From the NCBI GenBank assembly GCA_964036045.1, contig OZ038379.1, positions 18,695,017-18,759,016 of the forward strand: a stretch of DNA of 64,000 bases, read 5' to 3'. The position numbers were made by a program, and so were the translations under genes. This DNA is from Eutreptiella sp. 'Long Island Sound 2002'. Its lineage: Eukaryota; Euglenozoa; Euglenophyceae; Eutreptiales; Eutreptiaceae. Shown here piece by piece: positions 12,708-49,074 of this stretch. Within the stretch, counting starts at the first letter, position 1; each line of letters starts with the position of its first letter. The notes beneath the pieces were generated by a model. That model ran no database searches, was not told the DNA's origin, and worked only from the letters and a program-made list of their open reading frames with translations.

Positions 12708-13164
12708 GGTAGGGTAGGCAGGTAGGTCGACTCGGGACTGGGGTTGCCCCGCAGGGGGGTCTTACCAAGGGGCTTTTGCTCACCCACCCACGGCCCTACT
12801 GCACGTGCCCCCACAAAGCGGCTCCCCCACATGGGGGAAGGGCGCGGTCGCCGCGAGCAGTACCCTACAGCGGGTTCTGCCCAGAGAGGTAACCCATGTT
12901 CGACCAAAGTCTCACACTCCTCTCCTTCGGGCGGATGATGCGTGGGGGAGGGTCCCATCGCACATCCTCATCAACCTCCGGATTCTGGGGCCCAGCGGCC
13001 GGGAGCCAGGCCATAGGCCCTGTCCTGCAGGCACCCCCACCTGGGTTGGTTTTCAGTAGGCGTGAGGCGACTTGAAGAAGCACGTGCTACGGGACTCGGA
13101 TGCCGTGGCGCACACTCACGCCTCCTGACTTGGTCGAGCTTGCGCTCTCCCGGGGGCCGGGGGT
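12708..13164 (-). other. LINE B 3' end
   Basis: Non-coding, GC-rich terminal segment. On the minus strand it finishes with ...cctacctgcctaccctacc next to the target repeat, a short imperfect CCTA-type tail instead of poly(A). Confidence 0.5.
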
Positions 13165-14330
13165 TCGAAGTACGTCGTTGTGGTCGGTTGGTCGGTCCGC
13201 TAACGGTTTGGCGTAGTTTGTTAATGTTGGTCGGTTGGTTGCGTGATGGTAGAGTCCCGGTTTTGTTCGCGGACATGGTCGTCGGCGGGCGTGGCGCACC
13301 GTGGTGTCGCCAACCCGATGGACGCCGTTCCCGTTTCGACCCGTGCACGCCTGGCTGGTTTGGTGTTGGCCGGCTTGCGTGTGGTCTGTTTGCCGTCAAG
13401 TGGCGGCTGCAGCTGCGGTGTAGTTGGTGCGCGGTTGTCTTGGCACCTCATGGTCGGCTTGGTCTGCGTGGTTTTCGTCGCGCTGCTGCCGGTGGTCGTA
13501 TCGCCGAATGTTGTTTGTGCAGCCGGCACGTCCGTGTCGGCGCTGGCTAGTTGCGTCTCGGTTGGTCCAAGTGCGGCGTAGTGCGGTTCCTCAGCGCTGG
13601 TTGGCCGCGTTCGTAATCGTAGGGCCGCGGTGTGCTGTCGTGTTCATGGGCATGGTCGCCAGTGGGCGCGGCGCACCACGGCGCCGCCATCCTGTTGGAC
13701 GCCGTTCCTGTTTCGACCCGTGCACGCCTGGCTGGTTTGGTGTTGGCAGGCTTGCGTGTGGTCTGTTCATGGTCAGGTGGCGGCTGCAGCTGCGGTGTGG
13801 TTGGTGCGCGGTTGTCGCGGCCGCTTCATGGTCGGCTGGGTTCGTGTGGGTTCCGTTGGGCCGCTGCCGGTGGTCTGATTGTCAGTTCCTGCTCATGTAG
13901 CCGGCAGATTCGTGTCGGTGCTGGTTGGTTGCGTCTTGGTTTGTCCGAGCGTAGTGTAGTGTAGTTTGTTAACGTTGGTTGGCCGCGTCCGCAGTTGTAG
14001 AGTTACGGTGTTCCTCTGTGTTCGCGGTCATGGTGGTCGGCGAGCGTGGCTAGCCACGGTGTCGCCAGCTCGTTGGACGTCGTTCTCGCACCGGCCCATG
14101 CATGTCCGGCCAGCTTGGCATTGGCCGGCGTGCGTGCGGTCTGTTTAAGGTCACGTCGTGTCCGCTGTAGCTGTAGCTGTCGGTGTGCGGTCGTGTTGGT
14201 CGCCTCTTGGTCGGTTCGTTCAGCGTTGGTTCCTTGTCGTTGCAGTGGGCGCCTGCGCAGTCAGATTTGTTGCGTGCAGGTGTTCTGCATGCTGCGGTGT
14301 TGGCTGGCGCCAGTTGCGTGGGGCCGGCAC
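13165..14330. repeat. ~377-bp tandem repeat, about 3 units, in LINE B 3' region
   Basis: The motif gac-g-cgttc followed by ccgtgcacgcctggctgg occurs at 13321, 13698 and, diverged, at 14076, giving periods of 377-378 bp. Each unit also has a ttggtcggttggt-type start and a gtgcggtcgtgttgg-type end. The open frames across it on both strands are incidental. Confidence 0.85.
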
Positions 14331-15390
14331 GGTACGTTTGTACCGTGCGCCGTCTGCCCACCGTGGGGGAGAAAAGTAATGACAAGTGGTCGGACCGCTG
14401 TAGGCCAAATTTTCCAGATTCCGTGCCCTTTTCCCTGCCCCGCCCTGGCAGTGTTGCATGCACAACCCATCATCCGGTATCTCGCGGTGCTCTGTAGCCG
14501 TCCTTCCAGTTTCGCTTGTGCCATGCATATGTACACCCCCCCGCCGGTGGAAAGGCCCCGTCGGTCCCCCTCAGTGCGTCCCTGTGCTCCCCATGGGAGC
14601 CCCAGGGTGCTGTTCCAGCTCGGTTTTGCGATGCTCGTGTTCGTGTCTGCCTGCCTGCCGTGCGCCATATCGTGCCGTCTTTTGCGGGTCATGTTGGTGG
14701 CGTGTCTGTGTGGCGGTGCTGAGTTTGGTGGTTAGGATGGTTAGGGCGGTTCGGCTTGTGCTGTGGTGCCCGGATTTTCCGTCCGACTTGGTGGGTTGGG
14801 CTTGGTGTAACACACCCGTGCCCGCTGGCAGGGGGTCGGCGTGGCCCCGTTTGTTGAGTCTGTGGTCCCCCGCGTGCCCCGGGTGGGGTTTCGGAGGGTA
14901 GGAATACCAGGCAGTGTTGCAGCCCCCCTCCCGCTTATTGACGTTGTTAACTTTCTTCGGGGAGTGTGCCCCTCGTACCATTCGCGTAGGTTATATGCGC
15001 CGAGACCCCCCCGGCGTCCCAGGCGTTCCACTTTCCCGGAGGAGGTGTGCACCGGTCCCCGCGGTGCACGTATCCCTGGATGCTCACCTTGGAAGGTAAT
15101 ACTCTGGACGATTGCTCATTAACATTCTCGTGGTTATCGGCCCGGCCGTGGGTTCCGCGTGTGTGGCCGGGCGTTTTGCCTGGCCCCTCGTGGATCCGGC
15201 TCGCGGGAGAGGAGGGTGAGGTGGAATGATGGGTCCGGGTGTGGCGCCTCCCCTTTCTCTGCTGCAGGCAGGTTGCGGGGGTCCGGGAAGTGTGGCCCAG
15301 CCCGGGGGATGTAGGAGGAAGTCGTTGGGTTTTCGTTCCTGCTCGACACCACGGGCTGCTAGCGCTAGCCCCCACTCTTCGGGTATCTGT
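14331..15390 (-). other. LINE B 3' region between the tandem arrays
   Basis: Non-coding. The right part (15117-15390) is clearly related to 27258-27530 and was joined to 26771 before Ty3-2 inserted. No gene was seen in 14331-15116. Confidence 0.5.
15386..15390. repeat. Ty3-2 target-site duplication, left
   Basis: TCTGT here and at 26766-26770 flank the two LTRs. The repaired site matches the paralogous repeat unit around 27488-27550, confirming the boundary. Confidence 0.85.
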
Positions 15391-16187
15391 AGTAAGAAAA
15401 AGTGCTTTTCCATTGCTTTGAGGCATACTCTAGTTGTATTAGAGATGCACTGAGCATCCATGCATTTTTATCTTAGTATTGGTCCCACCAAAAGTGGTGA
15501 TAACACATTTTGACCTATGGAACCAAACACCCAATCAGGATATGGAGTGGACCCCTTAATCCCCTTTCAATATGAAGTAAAACATCTTTTCCTGAGTTGA
15601 CTGAGCACTGACATACCTAAAGTAGAGCCTATGAATTTATCTATGTTTTTGCATGAATTCTTAGCTATCCTAGTGGTATGCACCCTAGTGGGCTGGGCAC
15701 CTCTTTTTGAGAGGTCCTGGGTTCAATTCCTGGTCAGCCTAGCTAAGTAGGAAGATCCCATGTGACATGGCAGTGACCTCATCGCCACATACCATGCCAC
15801 CTCAGCACATATGGGACCCAAAACAAAGAGTGCACATCTCCTGAGATGGCACTATGGAGAGAGAGTGACCATGGGGAAGTTTTCTAACTCTTTTCCCAAA
15901 ACATTTCAGCTATCTTTGTGAATATGCATTCATTTGTGACCTGAGTTGCAGTTTCTGTGAATATCCAATCATCTTTCACTGTTTACACTGCAGCCCTTCA
16001 TGCTTTGATCCTGAATCCTCTTCTCTTTGCATACTATACGCTTGGGCTATCCTGGAGTGACTTGGAGTCACTGTATTTCATCAAAACAAAGCTTTTCATC
16101 TCCAAAAACAAGCAGCGGGAAACCCTACACCAACAGCAAGCAGCAGGAGAGGCAAAACACAGTGCTGAAAACACTATAAACCTTTCT
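15391..16187 (+). repeat. Ty3-2 5' LTR (797 bp)
   Basis: Direct repeat of 25969-26765. It begins agtaag and ends cctttct, so it lacks the usual TG...CA ends, yet it is flanked by an exact 5-bp duplication. It contains a tRNA-like unit at 15664-15741. Confidence 0.9.
15664..15741 (+). other. tRNA-like unit inside the LTR
   Basis: The segment has an A-box-like tagtggtatg, a 5-bp stem with a 7-base loop (acctc-tttttga-gaggt, anticodon position TTT) and a B-box ggttcaattcc. The T-arm pairs only with wobbles and no acceptor stem forms, so it is tRNA-derived rather than a tRNA gene. An equivalent copy is in the 3' LTR at 26242-26319. It could supply an internal pol III promoter. Confidence 0.45.
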
Positions 16188-16200
16188 GGTAGCAAGAGGC
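16187..16200 (+). promoter_or_regulatory. Ty3-2 primer-binding site
   Basis: tggtagcaagaggc follows the 5' LTR immediately. Apart from one extra A it equals the site in Ty3-3 (tggtagcagaggc) and is complementary to the 3' end of an initiator tRNA-Met ending CCTCTGCTACCA. Confidence 0.7.
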
Positions 16201-16287
16201 AGCCTGTCTCTGCGCACCGGCAGCAACCCCGTGCCGTACATCCAGTGCGCCGAGTACGGGCAAATATAAGCTGAAGGGTGAAAGAAG

Positions 16288-17466
16288 ATGGATCCAGGAA
16301 AGGTGAACGCCGACGTGAAGACAGCGCCAGCGCCTGAGGCACCGGCAAGGCCGGCACCTGGCGCTGTACCTTCGGCGGAGCCCTTACATGGGCCAGTGGA
16401 TACGGCGGAGGACTCCCTGGATGGACTCCAGACGGCCTTCGGGGCCTTGTCTGTCGAAGAAGTGGTCTCTCAACCCCAGCCTGTGAAGAGGAAGAGAGAG
16501 AACGAGAGCGAGAAGGATGCGGGAGAAGGAGCAGACGAAGGAGAGGAACAAGGGCAAGACCTGACGAGTATCCCAACCTTCGAAGGCGCACCAAGCGCTT
16601 CTGGCCTCCACGCATCACCCTCTCCCATAACCACCACACTCCCAGCCGCCGCAACATCCACTTCCACAACCAGCCCGCCTATGGCAGAGGGCACAGGCTT
16701 TACTGGCATGCCTCACTACCCCGCCTATGGTATGGGCCCACCTACCACTGCGCTCCATGAGGCAACTACTGCCAGTGAGCCGGAGGGTTCCAGCTCTGCG
16801 CCGCGATGGTATGCGGCTGACTATCCCCATCCACTACACGCTACTGGAACCTACATGGATGTTCCTGGGTATGCTCCTGGTTATGCACCTGGGTATGCAC
16901 CCTTGAGTGGGTTGAGGAGAGGACCAGAGTCTCTTGGAGGCAGGAGTAGAGGATCGGGAAGATCCTCCAACAGGTCCCTGACGCGGTCGGAGATCAACGA
17001 GGTGCTCCGAGGAGCCACTTCAAAAATCGTGGGCGACCTCACGCAAGAGATCAGGGAGAAACTGGAGCCCCTGATGATCCCGTCCCATGCGTCACCTACG
17101 ACGGTGGGAATGTCACCCCACCGAGTACAGGCTAACCACCTGGCGGCAGGGTTGACAAATACCCTGGGGAGCCTGAGGAGCCGACCGATGCCGACTCCTG
17201 CAGCAATACCGAGAAGTCCATTCGTCCCGAGAACGGCCCAGCCGCCCTACAGCCACGTGACGAACTCGACGAGGGCCGAGCTGGACCAGCTGGGGCTGAC
17301 AGCCTTAAGGGCTATGGTGGACGTAGAGCCTTATGGCTCTAGTGATCTTGGCGGAGACCCCTTCGATGACGAGCCGCCGTCGATGGATTCTTCTTCGCCC
17401 TCCGATGACGATGACCCTGAGGACCCCAAGGGTAAGAAGAAGAAGAAGAAGAAGAAGAAGACCTGA
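16288..17466 (+). CDS. gag: Ty3-2 gag, N-terminal section (ends at UGA)
   Basis: 392 codons from an ATG in good context (agaagATGg). The protein is mostly low complexity: Pro/Ala-rich start, acidic-basic middle, a GYAP repeat near residues 190-205 and a Ser/Asp-rich tail ending in nine Lys codons. One possible helical segment lies around residues 233-265. The stop is UGA followed by CGC. The same frame continues without another stop into the capsid section at 17521, so the two are probably one gag read through UGA, or else a gag broken by a single mutation. Gag packages the element RNA into particles. Confidence 0.65.
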   Translation: MDPGKVNADVKTAPAPEAPARPAPGAVPSAEPLHGPVDTAEDSLDGLQTAFGALSVEEVVSQPQPVKRKRENESEKDAGEGADEGEEQGQDLTSIPTFEGAPSASGLHASPSPITTTLPAAATSTSTTSPPMAEGTGFTGMPHYPAYGMGPPTTALHEATTASEPEGSSSAPRWYAADYPHPLHATGTYMDVPGYAPGYAPGYAPLSGLRRGPESLGGRSRGSGRSSNRSLTRSEINEVLRGATSKIVGDLTQEIREKLEPLMIPSHASPTTVGMSPHRVQANHLAAGLTNTLGSLRSRPMPTPAAIPRSPFVPRTAQPPYSHVTNSTRAELDQLGLTALRAMVDVEPYGSSDLGGDPFDDEPPSMDSSSPSDDDDPEDPKGKKKKKKKKKT

Positions 17467-18780
17467 CGCCCTGAAGGACGCCGAGCTCAGGAGGCGAAGG
17501 CTATTGCCACCTCCAAGATAGTGGTGAACCTGCCTGAGTTCACAGGCAAGGACCTCAGCGAGTTCGCTGAGAACTTTGGCCGGTTCCTACGACTGACCGG
17601 CGGAACCCACGCGAGTGGGCGAGTGAAGTGCGATCTGCTCCTGCAGTGCTGCAAGACCAAGTACCTGGAGAAGCGGGTCAGGCAGATCGTAACTAACTCC
17701 GCCACCTTTGCCGATGTGTTGGTTGCCCTGGAGAGGCAGTACCCAACCTACGAAACCGACCTCTCCATCAGGGCCGAGATCCAGAACCTGCCCGTGCTGC
17801 CCAACAACCCCAAACCTGGCAGGGTCTCCGAGCTGTTGGCTGACCTGGATCACTGGGCTGGACGACTGACGCCCGGTTCCTACAGCAGCGACGACCTGCT
17901 GTTCTGGTTGTGCGCCAAGCTCCCCCGAGAGCTATGGGAAGAGTGCCGTTTGACGGCTGAGCGCAAGGCTAGATCCCTCCGCTACGAGGATCAATGCGTG
18001 CTGCTCCTGGAGATGGCGCTGGAGAAGGAGAGCGACCAGCACCTGAACAACTACCGTCCTGGTGGTGGAGGTTCTGGAGGCAAAGGGTACCAAGGGTCCC
18101 GACCTGGGCAGGGGACTACCCCCAAACACGCCCACGCCCGTATCATGGAGAACGTGAAGGAGCTATTCTGGTGTGATGCCAGAGATGAGCAGGGCCACCT
18201 GCAGCACGCCTCTGACTGCGAGCAGCGAGACTGCTTCGTCGTCCAGGGGAAGCAGCAGGAGAAGAACACCGGCGCCAAAGCGAAGCTGCCGGATCATTAC
18301 CGCTGCACCCTCACGTGTGCATTCTGCGGTAAGCGGAAGCACTACGAGGATGAGTGCTACCATAAGCAACGCCTATCGGCGAAGCTTAAGGGGGAAGATC
18401 CTGGCAAAGGCTCAGGCAAAGGTGGAGGCAAGGCCAAAGGCAACGACTCCGGCAAGGGCAAGTCGAAAGGACGTGGTCAAGGTGGTCAGGACAAGGGTCA
18501 AGGTGGACGAGGAGGAGGCGCTAACCGCCAGACCGACAACAAGAACAAGGACAAGAACGGAGGCAACCCCAACCCTAATCCAGGGGGGAACTCCGAGCAC
18601 TCTGGAGGGCAGTCTGGACCTACCACACGCTCACAAACGCAGGCCCAGCAAGAACAAGGAGCCAAGCGTGAGCATGAAGGTGGTGATGACGGCAACGCTA
18701 AGAAGAGGAGCCGTTTCATGAGGATGGCCCGCAAATTGCGGAACAAGGGGTTCGAGGTGACCTGTCCCGCGGAGTTCTGA
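17467..18780 (+). CDS. gag: Ty3-2 gag, capsid and nucleocapsid section
   Basis: In frame with the preceding ORF; the first Met is at 17521. A retrotransposon capsid-like domain (IVVNLPEFTGKDLSEFAENF onwards, about residues 1-170) is followed by a Gly-rich linker. Next is a single CCHC zinc knuckle, CAFCGKRKHYEDEC (C-x2-C-x4-H-x4-C), then a long Gly/Lys/Asn-rich basic tail suited to RNA binding. It ends at a UGA whose next codon is CGG, a context known for stop readthrough, and the pol frame continues directly. Confident as gag; the readthrough is an inference. Confidence 0.8.
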   Translation, partial: RPEGRRAQEAKAIATSKIVVNLPEFTGKDLSEFAENFGRFLRLTGGTHASGRVKCDLLLQCCKTKYLEKRVRQIVTNSATFADVLVALERQYPTYETDLSIRAEIQNLPVLPNNPKPGRVSELLADLDHWAGRLTPGSYSSDDLLFWLCAKLPRELWEECRLTAERKARSLRYEDQCVLLLEMALEKESDQHLNNYRPGGGGSGGKGYQGSRPGQGTTPKHAHARIMENVKELFWCDARDEQGHLQHASDCEQRDCFVVQGKQQEKNTGAKAKLPDHYRCTLTCAFCGKRKHYEDECYHKQRLSAKLKGEDPGKGSGKGGGKAKGNDSGKGKSKGRGQGGQDKGQGGRGGGANRQTDNKNKDKNGGNPNPNPGGNSEHSGGQSGPTTRSQTQAQQEQGAKREHEGGDDGNAKKRSRFMRMARKLRNKGFEVTCPAEF

Positions 18781-21700
18781 CGGGGACGCTCTGGTGGCAC
18801 CCAAGACCTGGTGTTTTGGGTACGTATCCGACTAGGGGGACGTGAATACCTGGGGGTACTGGATACTGGCGCCACAATATCGATAGTGGTCAAGAAAATT
18901 TTACCTTATGGGAGCCTGAAGAACACCATGACCACCGCCGCTATACGCATTGGGGATGGACATGTGGTGCACAGCTGCGGGGACTGTGAAGTGGAGGTAC
19001 CTATGGGCTCCAGGACTATCGCCCATCGGTTCTATTTGATGGACACTGATGCCTTCGACTTTGTACTGGGGACTGACTTCTTCGTGCAGCACTCCCAGAT
19101 ACAATCCCTGACGCTGCAAGCGCCCTACCTCCTCTACGTGGACCACGGCAGTGGCAGAGAGTCTGTGCCACTGGAGCAGTCGGAACATACCTCGAGTTAC
19201 CTGAGGCTATCGAAGGAGGAGCCCTCTAACATGATGGCGGCTTCCAAAACTGAGGACTATCAACTATTGGGGGAAGTCCTAGACCAAGGTCTGAAGGAGT
19301 TGGGTTACTCTCGAGAAGACCTGAGTGTGGAGTTGTTCGCCAGCGACAAGCAACATGTACTGGACCTTTACTGCAGCAAGGGGAAGAACTGCAGCTACAA
19401 ATTTTACTGGCCCTCTTTCGTGATGGCCTACGGGAACCCCAGATTCAGTGAACTGGGGAAGGTGCTGACCAAGGTGGCCTTGGAACGTTCCCGTATGGTC
19501 CTGTGTTCCCCCGATTGGGGAGCCCATGGGGGCAACGAGTACTGGCGAAACCTCCTGGACAGGCTGACTATCAGCTCTGTACGTTTGCCTGATGAGGCCA
19601 TCTACGTGCCTCTGGGACGCAAGACGCCTATTGGGAAGCCCGGATGGGGGAGTATGCTCAGCGTGGTGGACGGAAGTCTTACCACCATCCCCTGGGAGGA
19701 CCTGGACCCTACTCTGGTCCAGGCTATACAACGAGAAAGCGATGGACTCGCCTTGGGTGACTTGAAGGATCGCCTACGACCTCAAGATGCTGTTGAGACT
19801 ACACCCGGAGGAGATGAGTACGTCGTGACCGACACCAACGCCCCCAACTCTCCCTGTCATGTACCTGTTACTGATGGAGTCTCTGAGTGTGGACTATCTG
19901 AGCTACCTAGCTCTATCCACTCAGACGACGAAACTGAGCACGACGCCTTCTTCGTGCAGACCTGTGTGGAGGAAGTGGAGAACGCCGAGTACGTCGCCCC
20001 ACTGAAACCCCTACTCTCCATGAGGGTGGAAGACCCCGTGGACGAGGAGCTGGACCCTCGATCCAGGCTCAGGGAGTATGTGGATTCCAAGAGGAAGTTG
20101 GTTGCGAAAAAGCTATGCTACGCGAAGCCTACCCGCAGCTCGTGGCCACTGAAGCAAGGACGTATGGGAGACCTATCCCAATTGAAGGAGGACCCCGAAC
20201 AGAAGATCACCACCTGGCAAAGGGAGGTAGATCTCAAGCTCATGAAGAGCGTGTGGGGCGCCCATGTGAGGACCCCAGAGGAGGACGACCTCTCGGAGGA
20301 ACGTGTGTGTGAACCCCCTCGAGCGTGCCTATGCTGCCATCGTCCATCGGAGATGGTTGAACAAGACCTTCTATATGCCTACCAAGGGCTGAAGGATACT
20401 ACCACGGGCGAAGAGTCGGTGGAGGACCACCTCCCGAAGTCTATTCAAGGGGCAAGCAACTTACACTCCGACGAGGACATGGAGGACAAGATCAAGGTTT
20501 TGGACCCGCGGGTACAGAAGCTTATAAGGACCTATCTGGAGGTGTTCGGAGAACTACCCCCTCCAGCCTCATGTGACAAGCTGGTACAGATGGACCTCAA
20601 GCTGAAACCCGAGTTCGTGGGTCACAAGATCCGGAGGAGACCCTATCCAGCTCCTAAAGAGCAGGCCGACGAGATCGAGCGACAGATACAAGAGTGTATC
20701 GACACTGGCCTAGTCCTGGAGTACAAGGACGGGGACTACCCCCTACACTGCAGCCCCTGTTTCCTGGTGGCTAAACCTGGGTCTACAGCTAAACGGCTGG
20801 TAGTGGACTACGGAGAGCTGAACAAGAAGACGTTGAACCACTCAGGGTCCATTCGCAATATGGAGTCTACGCGGGAGAAGATAGCCTACTGCCGCTACAA
20901 GACCAAGATGGACAAGCGAAGCGGATTCTGGCAAGTGGACCTGACGCCCAACGCACAGGAACTACTGGCCTTCATCACCCCTCAGGGGAGGGTGTTCAAG
21001 TGGAAGGTCATGCCGTTTGGCGTGGCTAACGCACCTGCTCTATTCCAGGAGCTGATGAACAAGATCTTCTCCATCCTACGAAGGAGACCTAAGGTGCAGG
21101 AGCTCATATCCCGTGGTGCCCAGATGGAGGCTCATATCGACGATGTATGCCTCGGTACCAATACCCAGGAGGATCACCTAATCCTCTTGGGTGAGTTCTT
21201 TGCGGTCTGCCAGGAGAACCACACTCGACTCAAGCTGGAGAAGTGTGAGTTCATGCAGGAGACCATGCAGTACTTGGGGTTTGACGTTGGCTATGGGTGG
21301 TGGACCCCAGCAGCCTCTAAGGCCAAACCCCTGATGGATGCCAAGGTACGACACGAAGACCCCAAGAAAGGACTTCATGATGTACGCAGTTTCATTGGGG
21401 CGTGCAACTTCTATCGCCGCCACATCAAGAACTTCACCTACACCAGCGCCGTTCTGACGGACTTGATCAAGAAGAGTACTACTTGGCGCTGGGGCCCACA
21501 AGAGCAACAAGCGTTTGACGAGCTCAAAGACAAGGTAGCCAACGCTAAGTGCTTGGGCGTGCCTAGGGCACAAGGGAAGATTAACCTGGTGACCGACGCC
21601 AGCAATGTGGGCGGTGGTGGAACGTTGTTCCAATGGCAAGCACTAGAGAAGGAGGAGTTCGACTCGGCCATTTCCCAATGGGGGACGGAAGGTCTCAACC

Positions 21701-26765: not shown

Positions 26766-26770
26766 TCTGT

Positions 26771-37094: not shown

Positions 37095-38202
37095 CCCACG
37101 AAAGCCAGAGGGCCGGATACCCGCCTCCTGCACTCTCTAGCCCCCTCTGCCTGAAAACACAAGGGTCAAGATTCGGTGAAACACCGGCCCAGTCACGGCT
37201 TCCTCCGTCACCGGCAAGGGGCTGGACGAAGAGCTCCCCTCGGCCGGAGTACCGGCCGACCAAATTCAGCATTTCCGTAGCCTTAGCCGGCCCAGCCAGC
37301 CCAACCCCCCAGCACCCCCTCAGCCCCCCCCTATCCCGCCCCAACCGAAGTCCGGTACGCGCCTACGGAAGGGGTACCAACGGCCTCACCGCCCCCCCAT
37401 ACCCCTCCCTTCAGGAACTGCGTTTTCTGTCCCACAACTTGCAGAAGAAACCTATAGTGAGCAGCCAAATTCTCCGGCACCTCAAGAACGACTTCAACAT
37501 CCTCTTCCTCCAAGAAATCAATCACGCCCCCATCCTCCCCCACGTATACGCCTACGGTTCGGGCACTAAAGCCACCATTGTTTCGAACATCAGCCAGGAC
37601 AAACACTCCAGAGGCGAGCACGGGTCCGTTTTGGTTTGCTCCCCATGGCTCGCCCGTTTCGTTAGGCCCCTCCCCCGACTCGATAAGGAAGGGCTGCTGC
37701 AGGAGCCGTTCTCACCCTCCCTGGGGCCCGGCCCACCTTGTTGGTCTCGGTATACGCCCCGAGCGCGGGCGTCCACCGCTCAAAAATTGAAAACATCCTG
37801 CGGCCACTCATGCATCAGTATCCCAACCACGTCCTAGGCGGAGACACCAACTGCAGAATGTGCCCTGAGCTGGACGGAGCGAACCTCCAAACGGACAACG
37901 AGTGGCCATGGCTCCGCAGGCAGGTCACGAGCGACCCACGCGCCTCATGGATACCTTCCGGCACATTCACCCGACCGAGCGGTCTTTCTCCCGATACCCC
38001 AACCCGTACAGGGCAAGCAGCAGCCGACTCGACCATATTTTGCTCTCCCCGGCGGCTTCGGAATTTTTTGCCCCCATCTCTGCAACCATCCAAACCGACG
38101 ACAAAACGTCAGACCACCACCCAGTCACGTACACCTCTCAAGTCCCCCCCCACCCCTTCTCCGAAACACCCACCACTAAGAGAGAAGTTTTCCGCAAACT
38201 GA
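36983..38202 (+). pseudogene. LINE A APE-type endonuclease (frameshifted)
   Basis: Apurinic-endonuclease-like motifs appear in order in three frames: RFLSHNLQKK and NILFLQEIN (frame from 36983), VSVYAPSAG and VLGGDTNCR (frame from 37738), then SSRLDHILLS and TSDHHPVTY (frame from 37902). Together they give the Asn, Glu, GD-N, Asp and DH residues of the fold. This endonuclease nicks target DNA so that RT can prime. Two frameshifts near 37700 and 37900 break it here. Confidence 0.75.
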
Positions 38203-38924
38203 CGCAGCGGGAGCGCTTCAAGCACCACGACTCCCTCGCCCCCCTGGCGCGATGGTGCGAGTCTACCCTCCCCCGCTTTGAGTCTTTATCCTCGGCAGAC
38301 ATAGAGCTTATCACAGATGTGGTGCTGGACGAAGTAGCGACCAGCTACCACAATATCACCACACCGTCACACCCCACCTCCTCGGCTCTGGTTAAGAAAA
38401 TCAAAGCGTCCCTGCAAGCCCTGCCCCCCCCCAACCATCCCAACTACCCTGCTTCCATGGACACGCTCAACAAACTCGTCAAGGAGTGGGAAACCAAAGT
38501 GAACAAGGCCGCAACCACCAAAATCCATCGGTGCCTTGTGAGGAAAAGTAGGATCAAGCGCACCATCAACGAGGCGCTCAACCCCGTGGAACGCGGTGAA
38601 ATAACGCTGAAGCGCCCGGGCGCCACACAGCTTGTCTCCACCCCTAAAGAAGTGAGCTCTATTTTTTCTTCCACACTCCTCACCCCCGGGGGCAGCCTCG
38701 AATACGCACCGCCAAGCACACTAGTAGATCGCCTGCTCACACAGTCCCCCTCCTGCCCTGAACCCACAAAACACAGCCCTGTCTCTGACATTACCTGGGA
38801 ATCATTCCGCAACACGCTCAAGAGGTCAAAGCCCAACAGGGCGGGTGGGCAGGACTTCACGAACAACTACACTTTGCACATCTCCCCCCCCCCCTATCCA
38901 ACAATTCATTTGGAGGGTATGTAA
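37902..38924 (+). pseudogene. LINE A endonuclease end and linker to RT
   Basis: It begins with the final endonuclease motifs. It then holds a helical linker (LVKEWETKVNKAATTKIHR) and the pre-RT segment ending at an 11-C run (38884-38894), where the frame shifts into the RT ORF. Confidence 0.6.
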
Positions 38925-40518
38925 CCACTACCTCCACCAGCCGTTGCCCGAGAAATGGCTCGAAGCCAACATTATGTTGCTTTTTAAGAAAGGGGACGTG
39001 ACGAACCCTGTAAATTACAGGCCTATAGCCTTGCTGAACAGCGTCTACAAAATAATTGCAACACACGCCAACCGTGAGCTACTGACAGCGGCCATGGAAC
39101 ACTCCATCATACACCCCACCCAGTTCGGAGGGCTTCCCAACCGCAGATGCCAAGACCACATTTTCAACCTCTTATCCACGTTTCGGGAATCAGTCGGTAG
39201 CTACAGCCTCTACATTGATTTCAATAAGGCTTTCAACTCCGTCCCCCACACCACCCTCTTCACAGTGCTGTCCCGCCTGAACTTTCCCACGCCCCTTGTA
39301 AACCTCATTCAATCCTTGTACCGTGCCCCCCGTGACTTCCCGGTGGTGTCAGGGCGCACCCACTCCTCCCACCTGCAAACCAGAGGTGTTCGGCAGGGAT
39401 GCCCCATGTCACCCATCCTTCTCTGCCTTTACCTGAATGTTCTCCTCTTTGACCTGCCGTCTGACGTCACGGCGCCCCCCTCCCCACAGGACTCGGGCCA
39501 CGCCTTCGTTGACGACCTCCTCTATCGATCAGAGGATGGGGACCGCATACAACAAATTTTGAATTTCTTCGACACGGTCGCCAGGGAGTGGGGTCTAGAC
39601 TTAAACGTCAGCAAAACCGAGATCCATGCTATGGGAACAGCCCCCCCCAGAACTTTCACCTCCCCCTCGGGCACCCCCCTGTCAACAACCAACCAGAAGA
39701 CGGGGCAACCACACAACTGCTACAAATACCTAGAGGTGTACATCTTCACCGCCAACCACGAGGCACAAACACTGGCATTGGCCAAGTCGGAAATACGCTC
39801 CTTTTTCACAACCCTCCAACCCCTCCGGCTCACCCTTTCGGAATACATTCACTTAGTAAACGTCCAACTCATGCCTATTCTTTCCTACCGCCTCATGGCA
39901 CACCCCATGGCCCTGAACGAGTTGGGAGCCCTCCAGGCCATGATCTGGCAAAATATTGCACATGACCCCTCCCCGGACAAGGCCAACAGGATTTCCCGCC
40001 TCGTCTCTCCTAAGGACCGCTACACCCCCCGCCACCAGGGAGGCTTAGGACTCCGCCACTTCACTTTTTCCATTAGCATGGCCCTGGTGAACACTGCAAT
40101 CAGGTACCTCAACGGAGACGGCCCAGCCTCAACAAAGAAATCCCTTTCCGAAGCGATGCTCTCCACCACACGCAACCCAATCCATAGGCCTCCGATACCA
40201 CAGCATCGGCCTCTGGGCCTCCTGCCCACCCTCCCTCTTCCTCCCGAAAGAGAAAGTCCAAGTCCGGTTCCTAGCCACCAAACCAGCACCACGATACAGC
40301 AAGTTCGGCAACAAGTTGAAACGAACACCCCAAGACCTAGGGTTCCACCTAGGAACAGTCACGGGGGTGCACACAGAATCGGCCACACTCCAGTTTTTGG
40401 ACGGCACCACCCACACCATCAAAGACCCCGGTCTCCGCCGCAACGAAAAAGAGTACACCTTTCAAAACCCAGCCATTTCTGTCCGCCCCCAACTGGCGGG
40501 GGACCACAAACTGCTTAG
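38845..40518 (+). pseudogene. LINE A reverse transcriptase
   Basis: RT blocks follow in order: LLFKKGDVTNPVNYRPIALL, QFGGLPNRRC, SLYIDFNKAFNSV (first catalytic Asp), TRGVRQGCPMSPIL, GHAFVDDLLYRS (catalytic Asp pair), then LDLNVSKTEIHAMG and a thumb/connection region. The fit to LINE-type RT is good across about 450 codons. The start of the frame is displaced by the homopolymer frameshift, and another shift before 40400 moves into the RNase H frame. Confidence 0.85.
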
Positions 40519-42010
40519 GCCCCCCCTTTTTCCACCCCCAAGAGTACATCCTCAACCCCCCCCCCCCGGGCCACACGGCAGAGGCCTGCTCGACTCGTCA
40601 CTGCATGGTGAGCTGGGGCGGCTCCCAGATGAACCTCAGTCCCTTGACCCCGATGACCTCGAAGAATGGGGTTGTGAAGCAGCCCTTGCCATCCTCCTCA
40701 CATCGTCCCCCGGCAAGACATTGGTGTACTTGGATGGCTCAGCAGTCGCCTTGGGCTACGGGTCTGCAGCCACCCTGTTTTTCCCAAATGGCTCCAGATG
40801 GGTGCTGTGCCAAACGTCCCCATACCAGTCCTCAGAGGGATCGGAGTTCTGGGCGGCTATTATGTTCCTACGGTGGGCCCTTGCATCTCACCCGCACCTC
40901 ACCTTTGCAGTGCTAGGGGACAACCTCCATGTTATCACTGTTCTCTCCCCGAGCACCCCCCCAAACCTCCCGTCACGCTCGCCAGCCGGCACGTGGGGAT
41001 CCTCTCTTCAGTCCATCCAGGCCTCCCTACGCCCAGGGATAATCCAGGGTTGGGGGTGGATCAAGGGGCACGCCGGGTTTGTGGGGAATGAAATCTCGGA
41101 TGCTTACTCAAAGTGGGCCGCCCACGTGATGATCTGGGACCCCTCCCTCCTTCCCCCCTCCCCGATAGGGTGCATATCCAGAGGCCCCCTACCCGTCATA
41201 CACAAACTGACTACCACCTCAATCAAGCACCTCCTCCCTTGCCACAAACACGAAAACATCCACGCACCGTCCAGCTTCCATTTTTACAACAGCACTTCAT
41301 GGTTCCAAGGCCTCCCTTTCAAATGGTCCTCCGGAAATTTCAACATGGCGACGTTTGCTTTCCACGACGACTTGCGCCCTCGCCATTGCCACGCTTGCCC
41401 CGACCCGCACCCAATGGATGTTATCTCTTTCGTCTCACACTGCCCAACATGCGAACACCTGGTGCAAACCTACATTCAGTCCTGGCGCCCCCCCTTCACC
41501 ACGGTTGTGTCCCAATGGTGGTCGGCGACCACACACGTCGGGGAGAGGCACAATTTCGTCCGGGGGCTTGTCCCCATGTCCCTGTACACCAAACTCACAA
41601 CCCCCCCCTCCGCCCGAAGAAAACCAGCACACTGTCATGACTTCAAACCCGCCCTGAAAGCTCGCGTTCCCCTGCTCCTCAATGCCCTATACCGCATGCT
41701 GGAATGGCTAAACGACAACCCCCCCCCCAGCCCCGCTCACCCCCCCTCACGGGCCCCAACTCATGGGGACGCCCCTGGTCACGTTACAGCACGTCACACA
41801 GCGCCCTACAGCGCCCCCCCCCCGCCTACCACCCTCTGCCCCTCCTCCCAGACAAAGTGGCATCCAAGCCTCCAAAGCGCCCCGTCCCCCATCCCCTGCG
41901 GTACACGCCAAAGCTCGCAAAAACGCCCGCCAGCCCCCAAGACCTGTCCGCCCTCTATCGCTGAAACGCAATACCGCAAGCCAACCTCAGCAAGAGCCCC
42001 CGCCCCCTAA
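40316..42010 (+). pseudogene. LINE A RNase H and zinc-binding C-terminus
   Basis: RNase H motifs are LVYLDGSAVALG, SEGSEFWAAI, FAVLGDN and WIKGHAGFVGNEISDAYSKWA. Downstream is a zinc-binding cluster (CHACPDPHPMD then HCPTC), also present in the truncated copy at 896-3781, and a conserved helical block (WWSATTHVGERHNFVRGL). The last ~110 codons are Pro-rich and low complexity. Confidence 0.8.
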
Positions 42011-42592
42011 ACGGCCGCTCACAATCCGGGACATGTTCAACCTCCCCCCCCCCTCGACCAGCACCCCCCCTCGCCGCCTCCGCCCCTGTTTCCGCCCCTT
42101 CTCCCCGCATAACAAGGTACTTCGCACCAGCCCCCCCCTCCCCCGCGAGCACAAACTCACAATCGTCCTCATCTTCGTCCAACGTGTCATCTCTTTGAGA
42201 AAACCCAAACTTACACGCTTCTCTCATGCCAGCCCTCAACAGCCCTAACACAGCGCAACCAATCAGTACTACCACACTGGCGCTCACCAGTCACTTCTGC
42301 AAATGAATCCCTCCCCCAAGCCACCCCCCGTGCTCAAGCCGTCATGCTCTAACCCCCAAAACCGCAACCGTACAGCCTTCGGGAATCAGGCAGAGACCCC
42401 GGCTCTGCGGTTGTCTTTAGCGGGGTCGCCAGGTCTCATTGAGATAAGGCAGAGGAGGACAGCAACGTGCAGCGGTACTCAGCCCGCGATTGAACTTGAT
42501 TTCGGGCTCCCGCCCCTCCCTCAAAAAGCTTGGCGCGCAAGAGCCTTTCTCCCCGGCCTGGCCAGCCACAAAAGGCGCCGTTCAGTGCAAAA
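42011..42592 (+). other. LINE A 3' untranslated region
   Basis: C-rich non-coding segment ending gccgttcagtgcaaaa at the target duplication (42593-42609). No gene seen. Confidence 0.6.
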
Positions 42593-45500
42593 AGTAACTG
42601 GAGGAGGGGCCACGGGATGGCCAGCGCGTGGGGCCCACATCGCCAGCAAGTGGTGGGGGTGCCCGTCAGCTTGTCTTGCGATAGTGGCGGCGGACAGAAG
42701 GGGCGCACCGTGGGTGGCGGTAGCATCCACAAGCTGCCCCCTGCTCTGCCCGGCCGCAACGTGGCCTTGAGCCCGTTGGGCGCTAGGAGGAGCACCGCGG
42801 GCACCGTGGTACCGGGTACATATTCCCCTTGCTCTGATGGCCGGTGGTGGGCCTGGCTCCCTCGCGGTGGGCTCGGTGGCAATGGCCGTTTGTGTGTGTT
42901 CCAAAACAGGTTGTACGCTTCACGTACTTCCCCATCTGTTGGTTGGGGGTGCCCGGTTTGGGTGGCCGCACTGCGCATGTGGTTCTCCAGGAGTGATTTG
43001 TTTGGCCACTCCGGGTGTTTTAGGAATGGGACGTGGTGTGTGCCCACTCGTTTGAGGGCTTGTATCTGGTTTGGGGTGACCCGCACGAGGTGGAGGGTGG
43101 TGCCCACCAGGTCCAGAGTGGTGGTGCTTCCCGTTGGTCCACCCCCCACATAGGTGTGAAGGACCGCCAGAGGGCCGGTTTCCCTGCACCGATGGTTCGT
43201 TTGGATGACGTGTTGGTGGTGGGGCAGCAGGAGTTGTAGGTAGTTCCATATGCGGGCCCCCACCTTGGTGGGGAGGCCCCGCTGGTGAAGTATGTATTGG
43301 GGGCAGGTGTTGCGATGGTATTGGGCCTCCCGCAGTGTCAGCGTGAAGACTTCTCGTACCTCCGGCTCATGATTGTGCATGAGACGATGTACGTGGGCTG
43401 CAGTGTGAGCTGTGTACGCGTTGTTGACGAGGTGATCGGTGTTGTCTCCGTAGTACGGTGGTGATGCAGCGCGTACCGTTGCAGGTAGCGATGTGGGCCG
43501 GTGGCTGTGGATGGTCCACGCTCGTCGCACTGTGGTAGCGGCCGCTTGCAGCATGTGTTGGGGGTGCGTTAGGTGCAAGGCCTGGAATCCTATAGCTGCG
43601 TTGAGAACGGCTTGTAGAAAATATGCCAGGGCCTGGTCGGAGAGTGCCGTGATGCGTGCTATGACTAGTGTCCGTGTCAGCTGCCGTACCAGGTTTGGCG
43701 GCAGGGTGACCCCGCCTGCGGTGGCCGCTTGTTGGACCCCCAGGTAGGTGGCCGTGTTTACTGGGTTCATGGGTAGGTCTCCGGGGCGGAGGGGCGGCGG
43801 CGGTGCGTTGTGTACCATGGTGGCAGATTTGACGTTGTGTACCAGCAGCTGGTTGCCCTCCAGGTAGGTGGTGACGACGTGGAGGACTTTGGTGGCTCTG
43901 GTGGGGTCCAGGGTGGTCGGCAGGGGTTGACGTGTGGTGGCGGTCATCACCGCAATGTCGTCCGCAAACGCTAGGAGCGTGGTCCGTAGGAGATATGGTG
44001 CCACGTCCGGGTATGTGCGTCGGATGTAAAACGCCAGTGGTAGGGTGACGAGTAGGAAGGGGAATGGGCCTTCCGCGCCCCCTTGCGGGACCCCACTGGC
44101 GGGGTGGACCCATGGGGTGGTGCCCACGTCGGTTTTTATGGCGTACATGCGGGTGGCGAGGTACGCTTGCAGGAAGCCCTGGAAGGGGAGCCCCATGTGC
44201 TCCCAGACGGCCCGCAGGAGGCGGTGCGGGGTGTTGGGGAAGGCCTCTTTCACATCCAGGGACGTGATGATGAGGCTGATTGGGTCCATGTCCACCACGG
44301 CGTCTTGCATAAATATGGCCTCCAATGGTGACCTACCCGGTATGGCCCCCCACATTGTGGGCGGTACAGCCCGGTACACTGCCGGGGCCACCCGTTTGAG
44401 GATGAGCATCCATATGAGTTTGGCTTCCGTGGTGGCACACACGATGGGTCTCCAGTTGTCTGGGTTTGCCCCGTCGCCTTTCTCATACAGCGGGTTTACT
44501 AGGTTTGCCCAGTCGGGTGGTACGTCCGTTCTCTTGATGGCGATATCCCACAGGCGCGCGGCCAAGTGTCTCTTCAGGTCCAGCGGGAGCCTACGGTAGA
44601 GCTCCGCTGGGAGTCCGTCCACCCCCGGGGTTTTTCCCGGTTGTAGCTTGTACAACACCTCATCGAGTTCACGAATAGTGAACGGGGTTCGGTGCATGTC
44701 TCGTCGCTGCGTCCGGTTGCAGAGTTTCAGCAGGTGGGATATCAGTTCCTCCGTGTATGCTGACAGCTCGCCATCCTCAGTGTTGTGTTGGCGCAGGAAG
44801 CTGTTGAGGACTTCTTCCAGGACCACCTTGGGATTGTTGGTCACTGTGCCGTCCTGCAGGCGTACCACGATGATGCCTCGGTGGCCGGTGTCCCCCAGGA
44901 CCTTGTCCACGTGTTTCAGGGATTTGTAGGGTTGGGGGTTTTGGAAGTAGCGGTGTTGTTCTTGCGCCAGTTCCTTTGCCCGGCGGATGTGCCATTCTCT
45001 GAGTTGCCGGCGTGTGGTGTCCAGTCGTGCGGCGATTTCCTGGGCGTCATGTTGGGCTTGTAGGTCATGCGAGTGCACTGCTGTGTGCATTGCTCGCTTG
45101 TCGTGCCATATGGTTGTGACCAGGGATCGTAGGTCTTGATGCGGGATGGTATCGTCCTGTGATCTGTGTTGTCCGCTGAGGCCGCATGCTGTGGCCACCT
45201 GTCGCATGGCGAGGTTGAGGTCCGTCTTGTCTTGTTGGCCCAGGATGCGTTGTACCGTGCGGTAGTACGCTACCCATTTGTGGGTGTCGTGCTCTCCTGG
45301 CGGCTTGATGGGTGCTTGCTCTTTGTGGTCCATGCCATCCCTGGAGGTCGGGGGTACCTGAAGTACCTTCATTTGTATCTCGAGGGGTCGATGTCCGGTG
45401 ATCTTGGATGGCAGGTCGTGGTTTTGCGCCCGCGCCACCTCGACGTGTGCCGAGTCCCCGTAGCAGAGGTCGATGCGGGAATCTGCCGCTCAAGGCTGTG

Positions 45501-46134
45501 GTGGTCTGTGTGAGGGCTGGCCTCGTAGAGAGGCTGTGAGGTCCTGCGGGCCCAGATGTTGCATGGCCACTTGCACCGCTGCGTCCTCGGGCGTCGGTCG
45601 CCCTCCGCAATCGTCCGCTGATGGGGCTGCGTTGAAGTCTCCTATGATGACTGTCGGCCCCATCATGGCAAGCTGTCGGTAGGCCTCCATGAGATGTTCG
45701 AGGAATGTCTCCGTGGCGTCTCCTAAGGGGACGTGTACGTTGATGACATTCAGTTGCCACGTTGGGCCTACCAGTTCGTATGCCGCTAAGCGGCCTTCCA
45801 CCCCCAGGTGGTGGTGGACGTGCACTTAGACTTCACCTTTGTGGGATATGGGCACTCCCTTGACCCATGTGGTGCGGTATTGGTGTCCTGTCCTGGTGAG
45901 GACGGGGGTTAGGTTGGGGTAGACTGCCTGGGTTTTGAGGGCCTGTTCCTGCCACACCATGGCGTCCGGGTCGCATTGTGCCATGATAGGTACGTCTTGT
46001 AGGTCCGGAGCTTTAGCCGCGTCGTACAGGGCGCCTGGTTCGTTGAGGGACATGAGAGTGACGAGCGCAGTTGTGACCTCGTGGGCGCGCGCCTTGGTGG
46101 CCCCTGGGGGGTCCCTGGCGCGGCGCGGTAGTAG
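42593..46134 (-). pseudogene. LINE B ORF2, N-terminal part: APE endonuclease and RT
   Basis: One frame runs from a UGA at 46135 to the LINE A insertion. The endonuclease comes first (DAMVWQEQ, VINVHVPLG, VIIGDFNAAPS, SRIDLCYGD, ITGHRPL). The RT follows (LQPGKTPGVDGLPAEL, YEKGDGANPDNWRPIVC, TSLDVKEAFPNTP, ASGVPQGGAEGPF, LLAFADDIAVM at about 43960, then YLGVQQ). It is interrupted by TAA at 45826 and TGA at 45490 and continues past LINE A into the RNase H at 34744. The intact frame would be about 1780 codons. The frame tail 42436-42592 is read into LINE A and is not real. Confidence 0.82.
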
Positions 46135-47979
46135 TCATTGTCCCAGGCGTAGTTTGTGGTTAATCGCTGTGGCCACCCTTTGTTCCTCCGGTACATCCGG
46201 CTCCTCCAGCCATGTCTGCGGCACGTCACCTGTCCAGATGGTGCCCGGTGGTACCTGGTTGGCGGGTGTGCAGATCTGCACCGGGCACTCCGGGAATTGT
46301 CTGTCGTCCCAGAGTTCGAGGTTTGAGGTCTCCACTCTTTCGTCCCATTCTGGGAGTGCTTGCCACTTGATTTTCAACTGTAGGTTGCCATGTTGGCCCT
46401 GTGTGGCCAGTCTGCCCTGTATCTTGCCCAGGAAACATACAAACTGTTTCGGTTGTCCTCTAAGCGTGGCTCCGTACACTCCCTGTACTTCTGCGCCGTC
46501 TGGCCATTCGGGGTGCATGGCGGCAGGTTCCGCCGGCGTGGAAAATGGGCACGCTGGGGCCTTCCGCTTCGGTTGTGGATCGGATGGCGGCGGCGCTGGG
46601 GCCACTTTGGGCTCCGGTTTGGGTCGTTTGGCCCAGCGGGCCGAGGCGTCCGCCGCCCCTGGGCGGGGCCTCGGTTTGGGCTGGGGCTGTTCTGCCGCCG
46701 GTTTGGGGGCCGGCTTCGGTGCGTCGCAACGGAATATGCTGTACGCCGGTCCCTGTCCCTCCTGCGGCCTGTGGATACCCCCAAGCCGATTTGCGTGTTC
46801 TTGTAGGCTGGCGATGCGGGGTTTGAGAGTTCCCTCCGTGTCCGTGGGCCACGACATCCAGCGCTGCGCTCGTGCTGTCCTGTGCATTCGCACATAGGCT
46901 GCCAGGTTGCGCGTGAGTGTGAGCCACGTCTTGGGCAGCGTGGTGTCCGTGGCTGGGGCATCTACTGTTCAGCGCATCGCCGTTTTGAGGGCCAACCAGT
47001 GCGCCCTGGGGTGGTTGGTGTGGTGGGTGGAGTGGCTAAAGCGGTCCCCCAGTGCCAGTGGGGTCGCCGGTTTCGCTTCCGGTGTGAATGTGTGGACCCT
47101 GTCCGTTGTGCCCGTGGCGTTCCACTGTGCCACCCACCATGTTTGTTGCTGGCACGTTAGTGTCACCGTGGGTGTATCCGGGGGTCTGTCATTAAAGGCC
47201 GCCCAGTCAGTGACCTTCGGACCTTCGGTTTTCCGGTCGTGCTGTTCCGCTGGACTTGTCAGGGTCACCAGATGGTTCATAAGGTCCGGCGTCAGGGTGT
47301 CTTCTGTGCCCTGTACTCTGTCCTTACGCGCCGTGGGGTGGCCCACGGCAAAGTCCCACGCGTCCGTGGTGGCCGTCAGGGTGTTGGCCGCCAGGGTGAT
47401 GACATCGTCCGTCAGGCCCTCCACGATGAAGTACTTTTCCCCCGCCAGGGTGGTCGGGACTTGGGCCGTGTGTTTCATGGTGAGGTGTAGCAGCGCCCTG
47501 TCGAGGCCCGGGGCGTTTGGGTCCACGGGCCAGGGGTTGCGCGCGCCGTGTCTCGCCAACAGGTGCCGTGGTTTGTCGGTGTTGGGTAGTCGTGGCCCCA
47601 GGGCCATGTGGTTTACCTGATCGGGAGGGATGGCTTGGCCCGTGGTGTCGCCCGCCGTGAGGTACACTCCTTTGGCACCTGTTACCGTGTTTAGGCATAT
47701 ACCTGGGAGTGGGGCGGGTTGTGGGGGCAATGGTTGGAACAGGGCGTGGGGGCAGGGATGGCCGCAGGGGGGGTCCCCGGGCCGCAGTCCAGGGCAGGGG
47801 CCATCCAGGCCGTGGGGTACGGGATATAGTATGTAGGGCCCCGCCACCCTGCGTAGTTTTTTGGGGTTTAGGGTGTTCAACCACCCCCCCACCCTGATGG
47901 TGACAGAGCCCTGGTCGATCCAGGTGGCTTGGTCGCGGTCAATGTCGTGGTGTAGGGTCCTTCTGATGGTGCCCCACAT
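46135..47979 (-). pseudogene. LINE B ORF1, C-terminal section
   Basis: 614 codons in one frame, broken by a TGA at 46969 and ending at a TGA at 46135 that is followed by CTA. It contains an ordered N-terminal half (WIDQGSVTIRVGGWLNTLNP, KYFIVEGLTDDVITLAANTL), a Pro/Lys-rich linker and a C-terminal small domain (QFVCFLGKIQGRLATQGQHG). No zinc knuckle or known ORF1 fold was recognised. It is immediately upstream of, and in frame with, the endonuclease of ORF2. Confidence 0.55.
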
Positions 47980-47995
47980 TCAGCGGTGAGTGGTG

Positions 47996-49074
47996 TCATC
48001 TGGGGCGGGGCACCCCGTGTCTATGAGGGGCATTCTGGCGTTTGCGAGGGCGGAGTTTATGATGTTTGGGGGGGGGGGGGTTGTCGTGGGTGCCGGTGGC
48101 GGTGTTCCCCGCGGGTTTGATGCTCTGGCGTGGTACTCGCCTCCCGTGGAGGGGTTGGTGCCAGGACGGGTCGGGGTGCCAGATGGGGATTGGTAGGTCC
48201 CCGTATCGTGCCCAAGTGTACACCGTGTATGCCGTGCCCTCGGTGTCGGCCTGCAGTCAGTATGCGGACTTCCCTGCCTCGCGGTAGGTGACTAGTGCAT
48301 TTGAGGTGGGGACGGTGTAGTTGAGGTGTGTGTGTGCCAGGGCGTGCGTGATTTGTACTTCTGTGCCCTTCCGCTTGTCTCCATGGTCTTCCAGTATGAA
48401 GTGTACCATCCATGGACTTTGGGGTTGGAGGTTACCGTCTTTGTCGTGCAACGGCGGGTGTATTTGGCGTCCAGCCTGCTGCGCTTTGTTGGCGTTGTGG
48501 TGGGCGCGTTGCTCGACAAGGACGTTCGGTGTCCAGTCCTGCAGGGCACCCTCCCTGTGCGCCATGGCTTGGGCCGCCTTGGCGAGTGCCGTGACAGTAG
48601 GGGGCAGTGCGGGTTCAGCGACCTGGGGCACCATGCCGGTGTCTGTCGGGAAGTTCCAGTATATTGTGAACATCCCCGGCTGGTGGGCGTTGTGGGTGTC
48701 CGGGAGGGTCAGAGAGAGCGCCTCTTTGATCTGGATTACCGCCTCTGGATGTATGGTAGTGGGGTAGTCCCAGAGGGTGTGCTTGGTGGGGTCCCGGTGT
48801 GTCCGGGCGGTACGTCCCGCGGGTTCCATTGTCTGCGACGTGAGCGTGTCGTCAAGGGCGACTTCGTCGAGGCGGTTGGCTTCAGCGGCCCACCTTGTCT
48901 GCCATTCCGTCAGTGTGGGGTCGTCCTCGGCGCAGTCTAGGGTGTAGTGGATAGCTATCCAGTCCGGGTCGGGGTCGACGGTAATGGCGGTACCCGTTGT
49001 CGCGTTTATCCAGATCGCTTGTGTGGGTCTCGCCTGGGGCCTCCCGTCGTCGTCGCCCAGGGCTGTGCCTTCCA
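47996..49074 (-). pseudogene. LINE B ORF1, N-terminal section
   Basis: It starts at an ATG that coincides with the 5' end of the element (49074). The frame passes a TGA at 48257 (followed by CTG) and ends near a 13-G run on the plus strand (48068-48080), where a frameshift leads to the next section. It is acidic and globular-looking (IAIHYTLDCAEDDPTLTEW, FTIYWNFPTDTG). Function not recognised. The lack of any 5' leader suggests slight 5' truncation of this copy. Confidence 0.5.

Follow-up and report, generated by a model that had tools for sequence, protein, structure and literature searches.

Long interspersed nuclear elements (LINEs), the retrotransposons without long terminal repeats (non-LTR), usually measure 4–8 kb. 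They are usually regarded as limited to several kilobases, as each copy is reverse-transcribed in one run on the chromosome. Elements of the Ingi type occur in Euglenozoa, and Dualen/RandI elements carry a cysteine protease. The present analysis concerns a stretch of 64,000 nucleotides of Eutreptiella sp. 'Long Island Sound 2002' (contig OZ038379.1, positions 18,695,017 to 18,759,016), which is referred to here as the window. We put the probability at roughly 95% that it carries a giant non-LTR retrotransposon with an apurinic/apyrimidinic endonuclease (APE), an APE-type LINE with a full length of 21.9–22.3 kb in a euglenozoan genome. Uninterrupted 22-kb copies of such an element place the length limit of LINEs far higher.

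Several described systems come close to this element in one feature or another. The accessible part of PMC4640811 lists APE-type LINEs with RNase H in the I group (Ingi, I, Nimb, Loa, R1, Tad1, Loner, and Outcast). It reports a Ulp1-like cysteine protease in the non-LTR elements NeSL and Utopia-1_TSP, and it lists RNase H for Dualen/RandI, where Dualen has both APE and restriction-like endonucleases. A 2019 review devoted to giant transposons (PMC6431247) names, in its accessible part, giants from the LTR, Penelope-related, and DNA classes, among them the Penelope-related Terminons and the LTR elements Burro and Ogre. That part names no giant APE LINE and uses the term "non-LTR" only for short L1 transductions. 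A LINE of about 22 kb was not found in the open-access literature with search terms that do not prove its absence in print.

The window copy and its counterparts

The element in the window and its parts, including open reading frames (ORFs) and the reverse transcriptase (RT), are listed below in positions of the window.

12708–49074, minus strand: giant non-LTR element, 5'-truncated, with two later insertions; colinear with uninterrupted copies, about 17.1 kb of its own sequence
12695–12707: target duplication adjoining the 3' end; exact 13-bp match TACCGGGGGTTGA
49075–49087: target duplication adjoining the truncated 5' end; exact 13-bp match TACCGGGGGTTGA
15391–26765, plus strand: Ty3-2, a later-inserted Ty3 LTR retrotransposon; 797-bp LTRs of 98% identity, TCTGT on both sides
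26766–26770: copy of the Ty3-2 target duplication
34762–42592, plus strand: LINE A, a later insertion; 17-bp duplication at 34745–34761 and 42593–42609
46138–49074, minus strand: ORF1, mapped from the chromosome-15 copy; begins about 52 codons into the open frame and contains a frame change and stops
46135–46137, minus strand: in-frame UGA, followed by CUA, between ORF1 and ORF2
42593–46134, minus strand: first part of ORF2, with APE-type endonuclease (45493–45825) and RT (RVT_1 at about 43732–44475)
32953–34761, minus strand: last part of ORF2, with RNase H-like motif region and C-terminal cysteine/histidine cluster; P0001 spans the insertion point
27811–32913, minus strand: ORF3 region, decayed in the window; placed by mapping, by the single frame in copy C1a, and by codon-position bias
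about 32387–32913, minus strand: RING-like part of ORF3, followed by a disordered middle
27811–30059, minus strand: "Ulp1-like" C-terminal part of ORF3
26771–27810, minus strand: upstream half of the 3' non-coding tandem repeats, without codon-position bias
12708–15390, minus strand: downstream half of these repeats, with a CCTA-type tail at the end; common 3' terminus

For the 13-bp repeat, shuffles of the window, with one mismatch allowed, gave a mean of 0.17 matches. When the flanks are joined via one 13-bp copy, a frame is obtained that reads ...SPYGARCLLVREKNAQWYIFVNYRGLNIRTVRD up to a stop, with stops further on. We take SPYGARCLLVREKNAQWYIFVNYRGLNIRTVRD to be a Ty3/gypsy RT motif. The element in the window sits inside a Ty3 RT frame. 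It was itself entered by two younger elements. Ty3-2 matches the Pfam profiles of RVT_1 and RNase H, with integrase just below the cut-off, and the minus-strand tandem repeats resume beyond it (15121–15384 matches 27259–27525, and 26769–27249 matches 27530–27970). For LINE A there is a natural empty site, since the 85% identical protein P0001 reads straight across the insertion point without it. Ty3-2 and LINE A were rejected as parts of the element because of their own ends and duplications and the empty site in P0001. When they are subtracted, about 17.1 kb is left on the minus strand.

Other copies were sought in the same 2.28-Gb genome, where the window lies on contig 2. This genome has 39 matches to the paraflagellar-rod family PF05149 (best E=1.2e-105), a marker of Euglenozoa that gave no match in 14 control genomes; a vertebrate or plant host was rejected on this basis. 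A search with the RT part gave 21,324 first-look candidates, the best 45 of which were scored, and the first six copies (C15, C8, C1a, C25, C13, and C1b) were compared piece by piece with the window. In C15 and C8, a single uninterrupted run down to a common 3' end covers all three pieces of the window copy, and C1a and C25 reach this end with insertions. C13 is still within the element at the edge of the stretch examined. In C1b, the match ceases inside the 3' repeats; the roughly 3 kb that follow, as far as the edge, are of other sequence, and no 3' end of this copy was seen. None of the six copies stops shortly past ORF2, and all six continue through the "Ulp1-like" part. The same 3' end with differing flanks is shared by ten copies (the window, C15, C8, C1a, C25, C4, C5, C1c, C1d, and C17); no 3' end was present in the 3' stretch of C16 that was examined.

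The sequence upstream of the 5' end of the window copy is common to C15, C8, and C1b, and with more upstream sequence a common 5' end was found. C8 is an uninterrupted copy of 22,337 bp, and C15, which is without about the first 25 bases, has 21,936 bp. Relative to full copies, the window copy thus lacks about 4.9 kb at its 5' end. The two ends of C4, C5, and C1c also lie 21.9–22.3 kb apart; the interiors of these three were located only by RT and/or C-terminal ORF3 matches, which stand at the expected places. Among the best 40 of 1136 first-look candidates for 5'-end DNA, 34 reach the first four bases of the query, and all of the best 40 of 2026 candidates for 3'-end DNA reach within six bases of its end. 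Self-comparison of C15 and C8 revealed local repeats and no repeat joining both ends; therefore, the element has no LTRs. No relatives were found in viral contigs, in a search that may leave out records of this genome. Two copies have peculiarities of their own. The full-length 22.3-kb copy C8 (G000:C8:60599377-60621713) lies within an older copy of this element. C1a (L021–L023) has a 5' end, at about 2822–3189 in element orientation, whose similarity to the main type is only about 73%; from there the sequence passes abruptly into ORF1, which represents a variant 5' end or a deletion.

A direct repeat flanks five of the eight copies for which both ends were read. It is an exact 13-bp repeat in the window, 13 bp with one mismatch in C8 (inside the older copy of the element), and 13 bp in C1d, whose ends are 35.0 kb apart and presumably hold other insertions. 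In C4, it measures 15–16 bp, and 2000 composition shuffles of the C4 flanks gave a longest match of 10 bases. In C1c (G000:C1:154494860-154495010), it is an exact 30-bp repeat, possibly longer. Mobility is shown, at the level of sequence, by the end structure, the target duplications, and the encoded RT and endonuclease.

An earlier note on the window had claimed the exact 13-bp repeat around 12708–49074, a Ty3/gypsy RT frame that is rejoined when this span is removed, and about 17.1 kb on one strand after subtraction of Ty3-2 and LINE A. All of this was borne out, the rejoined frame with what we take to be the motif and with stops further on. It had also assigned the part from RING to Ulp1 to the element, with which the absence of an early end in the six copies agrees. 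As a check it had proposed a search for other copies with the same order, and a look at their ends and target duplications; C15 and C8 are colinear, and five of eight copies with both ends read have target duplications. Its statement that the element is exceptionally large holds. The size of about 17 kb does not, as the full length is about 22 kb and the window copy is truncated.

Reading frames, domains and selection

As reconstructed from the 5' end, the element comprises about 4.8 kb of non-coding sequence with degenerate repeats of about 350 bp, ORF1 (about 1,000 aa), ORF2 (1,778 aa), an ORF3 region of about 1,700 codons, about 3.6 kb of 3' repeats, and the CCTA-type tail. ORF1 and ORF2 are in the same frame with one UGA between them. 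This site is present at 16 of 20 loci, with UGA in 16/16 and CUA next in 15/16, a conservation that is weak evidence because the copies are close relatives. The sequence UGA-CUA is a read-through context.

Coding function was assessed by codon position, with C15 as the reference against five copies and the window; the p-values are rough, as they assume independent sites. Variable sites at the three codon positions number 125/110/213 in ORF1 (p=1e-9; ratio of nonsynonymous to synonymous change, dN/dS, about 0.52), 249/198/400 in ORF2 (p=1e-17), 29/24/48 in the RING part (p=0.009), 91/89/129 in the first middle part (p=0.007), and 147/133/220 in the C-terminal part (p=2e-6). There is no bias in the second middle part (82/82/85), and selection is weaker in the ORF3 middle at 15200–16048 (dN/dS about 0.87). 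Four stretches from the 5' end and three from the 3' end, each read in one frame, show no codon bias; their dN/dS is 0.88–1.15 in all but one, a short stretch with 1.83. By these measures ORF1 and ORF2 are under purifying selection, as are the RING and C-terminal parts of ORF3, with none seen in the seven stretches from the flanking ends.

The ORF3 region has a RING-like N-terminus, a disordered middle, and a conserved C-terminal domain. In C1a, all three share a frame that is broken by a few stops; one open frame of 1,199 aa spans the middle and the greater portion of the C-terminal domain. C-terminal matches elsewhere lie in open frames of 1,710 and 1,840 aa, which were located only and fit an ORF3 of about 1,700 aa. 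Frame changes occur in the ORF3 of the other copies read, and ORF3 is broken in the copies read except for the C-terminal part of C15 and C1a. Among the best candidates scored, 64 of 107 C-terminal matches are without an internal stop. The RING, disordered, and Ulp1-like segments are probably one ORF3 of about 1,700 aa.

The domains can be recognized to different degrees. The RT of ORF2 in the window matches RVT_1 (Pfam, E=1.6e-17), and that of the related P0037 matches human L1 ORF2p in the PDB (E=3e-4); at E<=0.01, P0037 has four PDB matches, each of them to L1 ORF2p. The endonuclease profile Exo_endo_phos is above the cut-off in P0037 and P0018, reaches 21.7 bits in the window piece (below the cut-off of 24.5), and was not reported for P0039. 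Behind the RT, a D-E-D-H-D type, RNase H-like motif is conserved in three families. ORF1 has no Pfam match at E<=0.1, with one non-significant match in the relative P0241. The N-terminus of ORF3 shows a RING-like C-x2-C ... C-x2-C cysteine/histidine pattern in two families and no significant Pfam or PDB match, the weak PDB matches including RING finger, PHD, and unrelated proteins. At its C-terminus, H197, D218, and C308 (numbered in P0121), spaced as His-(20)-Asp-(89)-Cys, are shared by at least 90% of the 20 relatives in the alignment. The element had been called polycistronic; the separate RING, disordered, and Ulp1-like ORFs of that description probably merge into one, which leaves three ORFs. 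Its RT is confirmed by Pfam in the window and its endonuclease in relatives, and the RNase H and Ulp1 assignments stay at the level of motifs, with no profile match.

A sister family is better preserved. The related protein P0037 is 47% identical over 95% of the query. All 27 scored copies of the sister-family ORF2 (1774 aa; the best of 23,291 candidates) are 99–100% identical, and 25 of them are without a stop; an example is G000:C6:141751650-141756830, with 26 others likewise. The RING-like ORF of this family opens 18 bases past the ORF2 match, and its 150 scored copies (the best of 26,502 candidates) are 97–100% identical, 149 of them stop-free, often in open frames of 1,151 aa. One sister copy that was read downstream, L054, is apparently cut at about position 604, beyond which lies sequence that is repeated elsewhere, partly as pairs 14.2 kb apart. 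The sister family is probably still active.

Weighing the explanations

Several observations weigh against a giant LINE as described here. No target duplication was found at C15, C5, and the C17 pair (three of eight copies), the last with ends 72.6 kb apart that may come from different copies. At C1c, the duplication is of unusual length, and about 25 additional bases precede the 5' end. In no single copy read are all three ORFs intact, and 123 of 126 scored matches to the RING-region frame of the window hold a stop; this query begins about 116 codons before ORF3, so that it does not test the RING part alone, and the stops may lie there. The RNase H-like region has no Pfam or PDB profile match. 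There is no significant RNA fold at the 3' end (z −0.43), and Rfam gave nothing at gathering for a 5' ribozyme, its three matches being far below the gathering scores; a 3' hairpin and a 5'-end ribozyme were rejected on these grounds. Finally, no Pfam peptidase was matched at E<=10 by the ORF3 C-terminus in 20/20 members, and no PDB match was obtained by sequence or profile.

We lean slightly toward the explanation that the C-terminal domain of ORF3 is not a Ulp1/C48 protease and has another, possibly new, fold, which the missing Pfam and PDB matches favour; the glutamine that usually precedes the catalytic cysteine is also not evident. This explanation is opposed by the conserved H197, D218, and C308 and by their HYY...VDSM...LCPVF context, which we take to resemble C48 peptidases. 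The His-Asp-Cys order fits C48 as we understand that family; the spacing and the missing glutamine do not clearly fit. The Ulp1 label is a matter of motif, and the identity of the domain is unproven.

It is improbable that a LINE took up host genes once by 3' transduction and now carries them as non-functional passenger DNA. The weaker selection in the middle of ORF3 (dN/dS about 0.87) and the broken state of the downstream part in the copies read, apart from the C-terminal part of C15 and C1a, would suit such an origin. The codon-position bias of the C-terminal (p=2e-6) and RING (p=0.009) parts speaks against it, as do the stop-free frames in 64 of 107 scored C-terminal matches and 149 of 150 sister RING ORFs.

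The window alone, with its nested insertions, would be compatible with two elements, an ordinary LINE of 8–9 kb that ends after ORF2 and an adjoining element with the RING and C-terminal parts. The spacing of the parts was examined across all 45 RT places, 40 five-prime ends (of 72 matches, the others being internal repeat matches), and 38 of 126 RING and 32 of 107 C-terminal places, picked by eye near a partner. With this choice by eye, the resulting counts are pairs found, not rates; the source lists, too, hold the best-scored candidates only. The distance from RT to RING is 4359–4385 bp in 13/16 pairs, from RT to the "Ulp1-like" part 8646–8690 bp in 10/12, from RING to the C-terminal part 4289–4326 bp in 16/23, and from the 5' end to RT 8418–8550 bp in 6/8. 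One exception is shorter (4069 bp) and the others are longer, as expected with insertions; the excess in the window equals the length of LINE A. As the spacing is fixed in most pairs, the downstream part is not a separate element. The two-element explanation, which we rejected on the uninterrupted copies and the near-constant spacing on many contigs, is further opposed by the target duplications outside the full 22-kb unit and by a relative, 53% diverged in ORF2, that also has a RING-like ORF 18 bases past the ORF2 match; it is very unlikely. As a separate observation, three RING-part matches stand at 3.19-kb steps behind one RT (G000:C6:33635037, 33638225, and 33641413), as an internal tandem triplication or an assembly effect.

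The copy nested in an older one and the tripled RING match might suggest that part of a chromosome was duplicated, segmentally or in tandem, and that the unit is no mobile element. This is hardly credible given the same ends with unrelated flanks and duplicated targets on many contigs and the encoded RT and endonuclease.

Proposed life cycle, neighbours and known systems

As a giant LINE, the element would use its own repeated 5' region as a promoter, from which one very long RNA would be transcribed. Translation of ORF2 may depend on read-through of the UGA-CUA stop at the end of ORF1, or on re-initiation. The ORF2 protein would nick the target and prime cDNA at the CCTA-type 3' tail, that is, by target-primed reverse transcription; the target would be duplicated over at least about 13 bp, and the new copy would sometimes be truncated at the 5' end. 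ORF3 probably would act on the host ubiquitin/SUMO machinery or process the element's own proteins. A more specific proposal is tentative and, in our estimate, rather unlikely as a whole: a giant euglenid LINE lineage in which ORF3 is a fusion of a RING ligase and a SUMO/ubiquitin-type protease, whose role is either to disarm control by the host or to bring an ORF1-ORF2 read-through protein to maturity, with ORF2 made via UGA-CUA read-through and one family still jumping. The near-identical intact copies of the sister family would make this idea testable in a culturable protist.

The neighbours of the element in the window are also of some interest. LINE A has an RT match to RVT_1 (E=3.8e-30), a weak RNase_H match below the Pfam cut-off, and, ahead of the RT, an AlkB-like 2OG-Fe(II) oxygenase domain (PF13532, E=1.1e-8, above the cut-off); a literature search gave no obvious precedent for such a domain in a LINE. 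At 54377–63591 (minus strand) there is a further Ty3 element, in which RT, RNase H, and a chromo domain are present; it is flanked by a near-identical 344-bp pair (50866–51209 and 63428–63771) that could be LTRs. The stretch at 8241–10611 is GC-rich (70% in 8001–10000) and contains a tandem duplication; long open frames overlap there on the two strands.

In Euglena gracilis, the unclassified repeat fraction is given as 32.7% in the accessible part of PMC11252322, and some of these repeats could be giant LINEs.

Among the known systems, the Terminons, Burro, and Ogre are likewise very long retroelements with extra ORFs. Dualen/RandI resembles the giant element in being large, and its RNase H and cysteine protease have motif-level candidates in the giant element; the second endonuclease of Dualen was not seen in the giant element, in an inspection short of a systematic search. 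NeSL and Utopia-1_TSP share with it a candidate Ulp1-like protease on a LINE. In those elements, as far as the accessible part of the source describes them, the protease stands at the N-terminus of a LINE whose endonuclease is restriction-like, whereas in the giant element it would belong to a separate ORF3 beside an APE and is recognized at motif level. If so, a possible ubiquitin/SUMO-acting gene would have been placed on a LINE. The I group comes near in its APE endonuclease, its non-LTR RT with an RNase H-like motif behind it, its target duplications, and its 5' truncation. Compared by features and not by an RT tree, the giant element differs from this group in being three to four times the usual LINE length and in its RING-like/protease-like ORF3.

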